From a virus, in IMG/VR virus record IMGVR_UViG_3300027298_000004, positions 1 to 37,001 of that record: 37,001 nt of DNA; one strand, written 5' to 3'. Shown here one piece after another: positions 32,654 through 37,001 of the stretch. Both the position numbers and the translations under genes were made by a program. Positions within the stretch are counted from its first letter, which is position 1. The number at the start of each line of letters is the position of its first letter. Under the pieces are notes generated by a model. It saw nothing but the letters and a program-made list of their open reading frames with translations. It was not told where the DNA came from and did no database searches.

Positions 32654-32680
32654 AAATAATGTTAAATAGTTATTAACATT
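32650..32680 (-). terminator. Candidate terminator at the end of the integrase gene
   Basis: An inverted repeat AATGTTAA (32658-32665) / TTAACATT (32673-32680), arms 8 bp and loop 7 nt, overlaps the last codons of the integrase. On the leftward strand it is followed by ATTTTTTG. The stem is A/T-rich, so it may be weak. It shares its T-run with the -33 element of the promoter just downstream. Confidence 0.4.
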
Positions 32681-33639
32681 TCGTTGGTTAACAGGTTTGC
32701 CATTTCCTTCTGTTTCTGGATACTGCTTTTGTTGGTGAATTTCACATATCTGTAGAAAGCCTCAGACCCATTCGCATGACCACTTATTTCTCTTACTTCC
32801 ATTTCAGTCAATCCTTTACTTAAATAATATGTGATTGCACTACTCCTTAATTTATGTGGTGTATATAATTCCCAGAGTTTGTTTGTGCATTTTTTGGGGT
32901 TGCCTTCATAATCATATAAGTAGGTTACTTTGTCAATACAGAAAGCCTGGTATTGTTGTAATAATTTTTTTAGATTTCTTCTGAATGTAACTATATCTAA
33001 TTTCCATTTAGTCTTTACAATAAAGTCTTTTACATCCTGTGGAAGATAGAAATTACTTATCGATCCAGTTCCTTTTTTTGTAATGATAGTGACAGAATCA
33101 CTATTTGTATCACATTCAAACCCTACCAGATCACTAATTCTCATGCAAGAGTATAACATAAGCCTTGTATAATACCATGTTGTATGTAGAGACTTGTCAA
33201 TTGGCATTGCTGTATGTATTAGTTCTACTTCTTCTGGAGTCATTGCGATTACTTCTGTCTTCACCTCCTTAACTGATTGTAATTTAGGAAACCAGTATCC
33301 GTACTCTTCCTCTCCCTTTTTAAGTGTTGCTCTTATTGTTTTAAGATGAGATTTTCTGGTGTTAGGATGTTTAAAGTCCTCAGTTAATAGGTTAAGGTAT
33401 TTGTTTACCTTCCCTTGTAGAGACTTCTTTACTCTGATTCTACTTCTTCTTTCTACTACTGCATTCAAATCTAAATTCTCAATATTAAAATTATACTTAT
33501 ATCTTTTCATGGTATTGTATACACCTTTATAAGATTTAATTGTTGAGTAGTTTAGTTTCTTTCCGTTGTGAAGAATCTCTCCACTTTCTAATTTATTTAT
33601 AATGTCCTTTAATAAAGAGACAAAGGTATGTTCTTTCAT
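32662..33639 (-). CDS. int: Tyrosine recombinase / phage integrase
   Basis: This 325-residue protein has an N-terminal SAM-like helical domain (residues 30-115) and a C-terminal catalytic domain (130-310). The catalytic set is visible: R167 (S-C-M-R-I-S-D-L), K188/K189 (T-K-K-G), H262 and R265 in P-H-K-L-R, H288 in S-G-H-A-N-G, and the nucleophile, probably Y298 in F-Y-R-Y-V-K-F; Y296 is the alternative. These enzymes recombine attP with attB to insert the phage into the host chromosome. The region just upstream (33640-33768) contains a candidate attP. No excisionase is evident, although the small basic gene at 33769-33993 is a possible candidate. The gene ends in a terminator-like inverted repeat. 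Confidence 0.92.
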   Translation of the reverse strand: MKEHTFVSLLKDIINKLESGEILHNGKKLNYSTIKSYKGVYNTMKRYKYNFNIENLDLNAVVERRSRIRVKKSLQGKVNKYLNLLTEDFKHPNTRKSHLKTIRATLKKGEEEYGYWFPKLQSVKEVKTEVIAMTPEEVELIHTAMPIDKSLHTTWYYTRLMLYSCMRISDLVGFECDTNSDSVTIITKKGTGSISNFYLPQDVKDFIVKTKWKLDIVTFRRNLKKLLQQYQAFCIDKVTYLYDYEGNPKKCTNKLWELYTPHKLRSSAITYYLSKGLTEMEVREISGHANGSEAFYRYVKFTNKSSIQKQKEMANLLTNEMLITI

Positions 33640-33682: not shown

Positions 33683-33753
33683 GATTGTAAAAGCCTCTCC
33701 ATTGACTGGAAAGGCACATTGTTGTAGTCCCTAGGGGAATCGATTTACAATCG
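33683..33753. other. Candidate attP: nested palindromes with an anticodon-arm-like core
   Basis: This 71-nt element fills most of the non-coding gap between the integrase start and the small gene at 33769. It holds GATTGTAAA (33683-33691) and its inverted copy TTTACAATC (33744-33752); a hairpin with arms 33693-33701 and 33707-33715 (eight pairs, one mismatch, 5-nt loop); a CCCTAGGG palindrome (33729-33736); and CGATTTACAATCG (33741-33753), a perfect 5-bp inverted repeat around TAC. Read on the leftward strand the last part resembles a tRNA-Tyr (GTA) anticodon arm; read rightwards it resembles a tRNA-Val (TAC) arm. Position next to the integrase and this symmetry fit a recombination core site. 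It is not a complete tRNA gene. Confidence 0.45.
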
Positions 33754-33768
33754 TTCAATTTATCAAAA

Positions 33769-33993
33769 TTACCTAGCAATAATATCATCAATTTCTTGTG
33801 CTAAATTCGAGTAGTATTCTATAATCCTTGATGATTCTTGAAACATTAACTGAGTCTTCCCAGTTTTCTTTTGGTTCAATCTACTCTTTCTTGTTTTAGA
33901 CCCATATACATATTCGCATACATCGGTAGAGGTTATTCCTTTTATGTTTAGGAGTTCTCTGGCTTTCTTCTTATATATTAATTGAGATTTCAT
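33769..33993 (-). CDS. Small basic protein, possible helix-turn-helix regulator or excisionase
   Basis: This 74-residue protein is rich in Lys/Arg in its middle (K-T-R-K-S-R-L-N-Q-K-K-T-G-K) and has a helix-turn-helix-like start: A-R-E-L-L-N-I-K-G-I-T-S-T-D-V-C-E-Y-V-Y-G spans residues 11-31. It lies directly upstream of the candidate attP and the integrase gene, in the same direction. That is where excisionase (directionality factor) or repressor genes commonly sit. No motif separates these options; the DNA-binding call is by pattern and position. Confidence 0.55.
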   Translation of the reverse strand: MKSQLIYKKKARELLNIKGITSTDVCEYVYGSKTRKSRLNQKKTGKTQLMFQESSRIIEYYSNLAQEIDDIIAR

Positions 33994-34015: not shown

Positions 34016-34588
34016 TTATAATATTACTTTGTCCTTCCAATTTAGTGAAGGATCTCTATTTGTCAAAGTTTGTCTTACAGAATTTTTAATTCTTTCTGTA
34101 GCCGAATCTGACTCATAGATTGTTGTTAATGAATTAGATGGTAAACTGTCCAATTCAAACATTAAAGCAGAATTTAATTTTGCCTCAAAGTTTTCGTGTA
34201 GTTTGTCGTACTGGTCTTGCAGAATATTATTCTTTTTGACTAGTCCGATATAATCATCTAATAAATCTTGATTGTCAGTTCTTTCAACATCAAAGTCGAA
34301 ATCATGTTCCAACATTTCAAGAGTGTTGTGGTACTTCCTTTTAAGTTCCTTGTCAATGTCGTAAAAATTTTTAAATTGCTTTAATGCATGAATACCAGTT
34401 GCATGGTTTTTTCCTATGTAATTTGCTGAATGAGATATAGGTACTCTCAAATGATCATGCACTATTTTAAAATAAATTTGTCTGGCATCCACATTGTGTC
34501 TCTCCCTGTTTCCATGAACCTTGCCCATCGAAACCGTATCGATTATTTTGATAATCGCATCAAGTTTTAGTTGTAATTGTTTTGTCAT
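34016..34588 (-). CDS. DnaA domain-IV-like DNA-binding protein
   Basis: This 190-residue protein has, in residues 30-75, a segment very like DnaA domain IV. R-Q-I-Y-F-K-I-V-H-D-H-L at 36-47 leads into S-A-N-Y-I-G-K-N-H-A-T-G-I-H-A-L, where G-K-N-H-A-T takes the place of the G-x-R-x-H-S/T-T motif that reads DnaA boxes. The rest is a helical, acidic C-terminal region. It has no AAA+ domain, so it would bind DNA without remodelling it. Roles could be origin recognition, interference with host DnaA, or gene regulation. An 82-nt leader (34589-34670) precedes it. Confidence 0.62.
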   Translation of the reverse strand: MTKQLQLKLDAIIKIIDTVSMGKVHGNRERHNVDARQIYFKIVHDHLRVPISHSANYIGKNHATGIHALKQFKNFYDIDKELKRKYHNTLEMLEHDFDFDVERTDNQDLLDDYIGLVKKNNILQDQYDKLHENFEAKLNSALMFELDSLPSNSLTTIYESDSATERIKNSVRQTLTNRDPSLNWKDKVIL

Positions 34589-36300: not shown

Positions 36301-36856
36301 TATATATTTTTTCTATTTCCTTTTTCTTTGCGTAAGGATATTCTATTACAGCCTCTTCTAAAGTAAAAACTTCATCAGCAAACATTTCACCTAAATCATA
36401 TTCCCAAGTTTCGTAACTCTCTCTGTATTGCCACTCATCGTAGGAGTAATCCTCTTCTTTTGTTATTCCATCTTCATCAAACGTTGTTCGCCCTCCAAAG
36501 TCACATCCACCTTCCTCGTATTCTATTTCAGCCTTGAGTTTATACTTTTTACAAATTTCCTCGACAAGTTTAATTGGGGGTGACCATGCAGAATCACCAT
36601 AGACTCTTAATCCATGATCATCAGACTCCATTTCAAAATCGAACCATTTAGTTCCATACATATAGAAGACATTAAAGTTATCTCCATACTTTTTTTTGAA
36701 GCCTTCGCCTCCATCAAGTTTACCTTCGCCTATTACATACTCACTCCACTCCGTAAAGTATTTAGATTTATCATAGGTTTTAAGTTTCTTTTCTAATTTG
36801 CTGAGAGTAGATTTACTTCCCTCAAACGTTATCCAGTTATTACAATTATTTGCCAT
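36272..36856 (-). CDS. Api92/DUF1281-like ferredoxin-fold protein
   Basis: This 194-residue protein has the start M-A-N-N-C-N-N-W-I-T-F-E-G that marks Api92-like / YubB-type (DUF1281) proteins of phages and plasmids. Later come F-D-F-E-M-E-S-D-D, G-D-S-A-W-S-P-P (about residues 87-94) and E-E-G-G-C-D-F-G-G, the segments expected of that ferredoxin-like domain. The end is acidic and helical. The family's function is unknown. The gene starts one base after the stop of the next upstream ORF. Confidence 0.72.
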   Translation of the reverse strand: MANNCNNWITFEGSKSTLSKLEKKLKTYDKSKYFTEWSEYVIGEGKLDGGEGFKKKYGDNFNVFYMYGTKWFDFEMESDDHGLRVYGDSAWSPPIKLVEEICKKYKLKAEIEYEEGGCDFGGRTTFDEDGITKEEDYSYDEWQYRESYETWEYDLGEMFADEVFTLEEAVIEYPYAKKKEIEKIYNEARTKEKV

Positions 36857-36857
36857 A

Positions 36858-37001
36858 TTATATAGTTTTTAAGTTTTTAATAAATTCTACTACTGCTTGG
36901 TATCTTGTGTCTAAATCGTTACTGCTTAGACATTCATCAAAGTACCCTACTTTACCTACATTATCACTTAAATAATCTTCAATCTTCTTTACTACTGGCA
37001 T
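36858..37001 (-). CDS. Small hypothetical protein at the right edge (may be partial)
   Basis: A leftward frame of 47 residues ends at TAA 36858-36860. Its ATG at 37001 is the last base of the window, so it may be the true start or an internal methionine of a longer gene. It is an acidic, helical protein (K-I-E-D-Y-L-S-D, then V-V-E-F-I-K-N-L). No domain is recognised. TAA-N-ATG spacing links it to the Api92-like gene. Confidence 0.5.
   Translation of the reverse strand: MPVVKKIEDYLSDNVGKVGYFDECLSSNDLDTRYQAVVEFIKNLKTI

Follow-up and report, generated by a model that had tools for sequence, protein, structure and literature searches.

A tRNA-Glu 3′ end beside a tyrosine integrase marks a very probable attachment site in an uncultivated Bacteroidota phage

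The window analyzed here, a 37,001-base IMG/VR virus record, carries on its minus strand a conserved 74-aa open reading frame (ORF; 33769 to 33993), then a 129-bp gap, and then int, the gene for a 325-aa tyrosine recombinase (32662 to 33639; PF00589, E value 4e-8; PHROG 1 integrase). Is this gap the place where the phage joins a host chromosome and, if so, in which gene? The first-pass annotation had read it as a phage attachment site on a host tRNA gene that would reveal the integration target, and that reading is borne out by a 22-nt identity to tRNA-Glu, which the annotation had overlooked although it is the strongest feature of the gap. With a 22-base copy of a tRNA-Glu end lying beside an integrase, the gap is almost certainly the joining site of the phage.

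The probable attP core matches one end of one tRNA gene

The core, TCGATTCCCCTAGGGACTACAA (22 nt; 33722 to 33743, minus strand), is identical to the 3′ end of tRNA-Glu. Positions 33743 to 33725 correspond to T-loop position 55 through discriminator A73, and 33724 to 33722 to three flanking bases; the core is laid out as the T-loop remainder TCGATT, the 3′ T-stem CCCCT, the 3′ acceptor strand AGGGACT, and the discriminator A, followed by CAA. The palindrome CCCTAGGG (33729 to 33736) is the junction of T-stem and acceptor stem in this tRNA-Glu end. ARAGORN found zero tRNA genes in the window, and other Rfam RNAs gave matches at chance level only. A scan of 84,980 species genomes for the 19-nt pattern TTCRATTCCCCTAGGGACT gave at least 118 loci; among the matches listed, 124 of 127 lie inside tRNA-Glu (TTC or CTC) as called by ARAGORN, and the other three lie 22 to 35 bases from the end of the locus, so that the tRNA gene is cut off there. 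All 22 nt recur in the tRNA-Glu of Empedobacter and in that of an uncultured Bacteroidales genome.

The same gene emerged when no target was assumed. In an open BLAST of the 71-bp interval 33683 to 33753 against 148 Flavobacteriales genomes, 22 of the best 30 loci overlap tRNA-Glu, all from one common query base; seven of the remaining eight were read and are coding sequence or, at locus L189, a hairpin between convergent genes. Among the tRNA genes of all fetched loci, tRNA-Glu reaches a longest match of 20 nt, and no other tRNA exceeds 9 nt.

The target proposed at first pass was a different one, namely the anticodon arm of tRNA-Tyr(GTA) or tRNA-Val(TAC), with a crossover centered on CGATTTACAATCG (33741 to 33753). 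The palindrome CGATTGTAAATCG does resemble a short anticodon arm, and an 8-nt stretch, TGTAAATC, is common to the gap and tRNA-Tyr; however, the palindrome is lost in the variants L004 and L157 (and is imperfect in L003), and neither tRNA is found among the best 30 loci in the 148 genomes. The longest matches to Tyr and Val genes are 8 to 9 nt, a chance-level length, compared with 20 nt for tRNA-Glu; the fetched loci hold only two Tyr and five Val genes, so the whole-genome BLAST is the stronger test for both. A crossover in the anticodon loop (subsite A) calls for a block running from that loop through the rest of the Tyr or Val gene, and the gap carries no such block. This target is hence scarcely credible. 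The annotation had also named 15 to 25 bp of identity with a single tRNA as support for its reading; the length agrees, at 22 nt, but the tRNA is Glu. Near-matches of 19 to 20 nt to the left palindrome in small Bacteroidota genomes were rejected as well, as they belong to a conserved protein-coding gene and to no tRNA.

The identity thus runs from the T-arm to the 3′ end of one tRNA gene. Crossovers at the T-loop or the T/acceptor junction are grouped as subsite J in the Islander database (PMC4383910), within the tRNA sublocation scheme of Williams 2002 as relayed by later papers. Like J-subsite sites, the window has an identity block that begins in the T-loop and continues beyond the 3′ end of the tRNA, its core adjoins a tyrosine integrase with its catalytic residues, and the predicted integration rebuilds the tRNA, in silico; it differs from them in that its identity is only 19 to 22 nt and that neither a lysogen nor a displaced tRNA fragment has been observed for this phage. 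The site is therefore an attP of an already known class, T-loop or T/acceptor junction sites beside tyrosine integrases, and is itself new; among the papers searched, none described a tRNA-Glu integration site for Flavobacterium or Bacteroides.

The core is fixed among relatives while its flanks change

Relatives of the integrase are few among viral contigs: apart from a near-identical record there are one at 90%, five at 65%, and one at 56 to 57% identity. The residues R167, H262xxR265, H288, and Y296 are invariant across them; the window's integrase family is distant from named families. Every relative with an intact gap carries GATTCCCCTAGGGACT between the 74-aa ORF and int, and the sequence is exact in the int gap of three diverged relatives (integrases 90, 65, and 56% identical). 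The tRNA segment is exact over 16 nt in four lineages, and both flanks change. To the left of the core, divergence proceeds outward from T-loop position 56 or 57; to the right, the endings are TACAA in the window, TGCGA in L003, TACAAA in L004, and TGCA in L157, each of which agrees with the 3′ flank of some Bacteroidota tRNA-Glu. This pattern is that of a recombination core, in which the host gene would fix the shared block and the arms would be the phage's own. Five related phage records have an unbroken core between int and the 74-aa ORF and lack the tRNA-Glu 5′ end, as expected of free or excised phage genomes.

This conservation also bears on whether the tRNA-Glu fragment is a working attP or only a leftover, that is, a displaced attR or attL fragment or a host-derived tRNA pseudogene. 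Fragments of tRNA genes can persist as scars, and the Bacteroidota draws described below showed no lysogen. A scar would, however, be expected to decay, whereas 16 nt are kept exactly in four lineages with integrases down to 56% identity, always in the int gap and amid changing flanks, and the variants of the trailing bases are ones also seen in the tRNA-Glu flanks of hosts. We consider a leftover very unlikely.

The 74-aa ORF lies directly upstream of the core, on the side away from int, in every relative (54 to 93% identity). From its size and place it is a candidate excision factor or DNA-binding protein; searches of Pfam, PHROG, and other family collections gave no match, and its structure model is all-helix, of low confidence, and without a PDB match. 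Its identification as an excisionase was rejected, since neither family nor fold backs it.

Several observations on other viral contigs accompany these results. Nine carry a longer tRNA-Glu 3′ end (GGGTTC onward) and no tRNA gene (L139, L142, L144, L145, L149, L153, L156, L158, and L160) and are apparently independent phages on the same target. An isolate virus record (L162, 1 to 1563) begins inside tRNA-Glu beside a large serine recombinase, which suggests that the tRNA-Glu end also serves recombinases of another class; because its recombinase is of the serine type, the record was rejected as an integrated relative. A tRNA-Arg(TCT) gene lies in the early region of three relatives (L003, 745 to 819; L004, 854 to 928; L007, 943 to 1017). 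The sequence TAAAACTATATAATATGAA recurs right over start codons (L002 at 60, 1228, and 1499; L003 at 166; L004 at 1893; L157 at 873), which makes it a recurrent A-rich leader of the sort expected where translation starts are of the Bacteroidota type. In L004, AACCTAT repeats ahead of int were tried as arm-type sites and rejected, because they resemble such A-rich start-codon leaders of this phage group.

Inverted repeats and a candidate terminator in the gap

The nested inverted repeats listed at first pass are all present where they had been placed. On the plus strand, GATTGTAAA (33683 to 33691) and TTTACAATC (33744 to 33752) form perfect 9-bp inverted arms; read on the minus strand, the phage-specific arm GATTGTAAA lies to the left of the core at 33744 to 33752, and TTTACAATC lies at 33683 to 33691, where it overlaps the T-tract after a hairpin. 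In an attP transcript the left arm would pair with 33683 to 33691, a putative role. Of 300 dinucleotide-shuffled versions of the 129-bp gap, 8 contain a perfect inverted repeat of at least 9 bp, as do 7 of 286 equal tiles of the contig; the arms are only mildly unusual.

Between the core and the right-hand arm stands the hairpin GCCTTTCC-AGTCAAT-GGAGAGGC (33693 to 33715, minus strand), which begins 6 bases past the core and is followed by TTTT (33692 to 33689), a candidate intrinsic terminator. As minus-strand RNA the hairpin alone folds with a z score of −3.7 against shuffles, and its stem is paired in 96.9% of cells across four variants, with two pairs showing compensatory change. The T-run is 4 long in the window, and L157 reads GGG-TTTTTTT, with 7 Ts. 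A strict consensus terminator scan of the window did not call the hairpin; a near-identical one at the Flavobacteriales locus L189, located between convergent genes, has TTTTTT after it. On balance, we favor the hairpin as a terminator that the phage supplies to the rebuilt tRNA-Glu. A search of viral contigs for the core-plus-hairpin pattern returned known members only.

These folds raise the alternative that the region is mainly an RNA element, an int leader or switch in which GATTGTAAA/TTTACAATC pairing alters the terminator in the attP transcript and a lysogen has tRNA-Glu in place of the left arm, the tRNA match being secondary. The minus-strand RNA of the region does fold better than shuffles (z score of −4.4 in the window, −5.3 in L157), and the compensatory changes in the hairpin agree with an RNA role; but the z score is only −0.8 in L004, and the outer arms, paired in 77% of cells across variants, have zero compensatory pairs and do not form in L157. 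With arms only partly conserved and free of compensatory pairs, an RNA switch is possible, though weakly supported. Moreover, it is the tRNA-derived part that is conserved exactly, which is what DNA recombination requires. A primarily RNA-based function is therefore unlikely.

Predicted integration and its consequences

We propose that the region is very likely the attP of a temperate Bacteroidota phage, whose integrase would recombine the core with its identical counterpart at the 3′ end of a tRNA-Glu gene in the host. The recombination itself is inferred from sequence identity, conservation, position, and the in silico reconstitution of tRNA-Glu: when a host tRNA-Glu 5′ part was joined to the phage half, ARAGORN called tRNA-Glu(TTC) for all four variants. 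The crossover would fall somewhere between the T-loop and the T-stem/acceptor junction, an interval within which the identity alone places it no closer. As the phage copy replaces the tRNA-Glu 3′ end on integration, the tRNA would stay intact. The predicted attL consists of the tRNA-Glu 5′ part, then GATTCCCCTAGGGACTACAACAATGTGCC, and then int, and the predicted attR runs from the 74-aa ORF to GATTGTAAATCGATTCCCCTAGGGACTACAA and host DNA. Because int starts 85 nt past the tRNA-derived 3′ end and the joining restores tRNA-Glu, int in a lysogen would start 85 nt downstream of the rebuilt gene on the same strand. The hairpin and T-tract would then lie between tRNA-Glu and int, probably insulating int from the tRNA promoter.

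Five draws of 291 to 396 Bacteroidota genomes (a total of 1772, with some genomes drawn repeatedly), searched with an integrase profile, yielded no integrated copy, attL, or attR, and neither did the 28 viral contigs that carry the core; the junctions are thus given as predictions only. The same profile recovered five of five phage records as a control, and its best two matches in Bacteroidota genomes were distant (E value of about 1e-13).

The main genes from 37001 down to 26208 all lie on the minus strand, and integration would therefore divide them at the core into two groups: int and the replication genes would follow tRNA-Glu in the same orientation, and those upstream of the core, from the 74-aa ORF onward, would be carried to the other prophage end. 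This arrangement admits a further possibility, that attP doubles as a transcription switch which integration sets. In the unintegrated phage, transcription of the early operon would continue past the core to int and the replication genes, with base pairing between GATTGTAAA and the T-tract arm of the terminator helping it through; integration would swap the GATTGTAAA arm for tRNA-Glu, and the terminator would stay active. With the terminator active after integration, the early operon would be cut in two, and int and replication would be silenced without a repressor. We regard such a switch as quite unlikely.

The attP reading can be set beside two described systems. In KplE1, intS and its tRNA have the same orientation, termed the STI arrangement (PMC2951348). 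The predicted window lysogen likewise has tRNA-Glu before int on the same strand, and its 85-nt intergenic region must contain any int promoter, but here a same-strand replication block also comes after int. The 10K genomic island of Riemerella anatipestifer was demonstrated experimentally to integrate at tRNA-Arg, and its published 53-bp repeat ends in AGGCACTTTTCACGAAGTGCCTTTT (PMC6764341). It comes from the same phylum, and its attachment sequence likewise has a short hairpin with a T-run just after a tRNA 3′ end; it differs in its tRNA (Arg), in being an island instead of a phage, and in its longer identity block, which includes the hairpin.

A likely chromosomal target, tRNA-Glu, can be named for an uncultivated Bacteroidota phage lineage whose integrase is far from named families. 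The host assignment to Bacteroidota is suggested by a DUF3127 protein, by nearest primase relatives in Bacteroidota phages, and by the form of tRNA-Glu. The core offers a further clue, in that the host tRNA-Glu should end in GATTCCCCTAGGGACTACAA; most matched Flavobacteriales loci read TACGGACT. Should recombination be demonstrated, the integrase and its site could be put to use as a tool for integration in Bacteroidota.

Other features of the window were also noted. All main early genes between 26208 and 37001 are on the minus strand, with int within the block, and no divergent repressor gene was recognized in this interval, which is unusual for a temperate phage. The N-terminal part of a 190-aa ORF (34016 to 34588) shows a weak match to the C-terminal, DNA-binding portion of DnaA (NCBIfam, E value 5e-4), and the ORF has distant relatives in Flavobacterium phages only. 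A module with an 89-aa ORF (window, 36854 to 37001; L002, 1499 to 1786; L004, 1302 to 1589) is 97 to 99% identical between phages that share about 77% identity elsewhere, which suggests recent exchange between phages.
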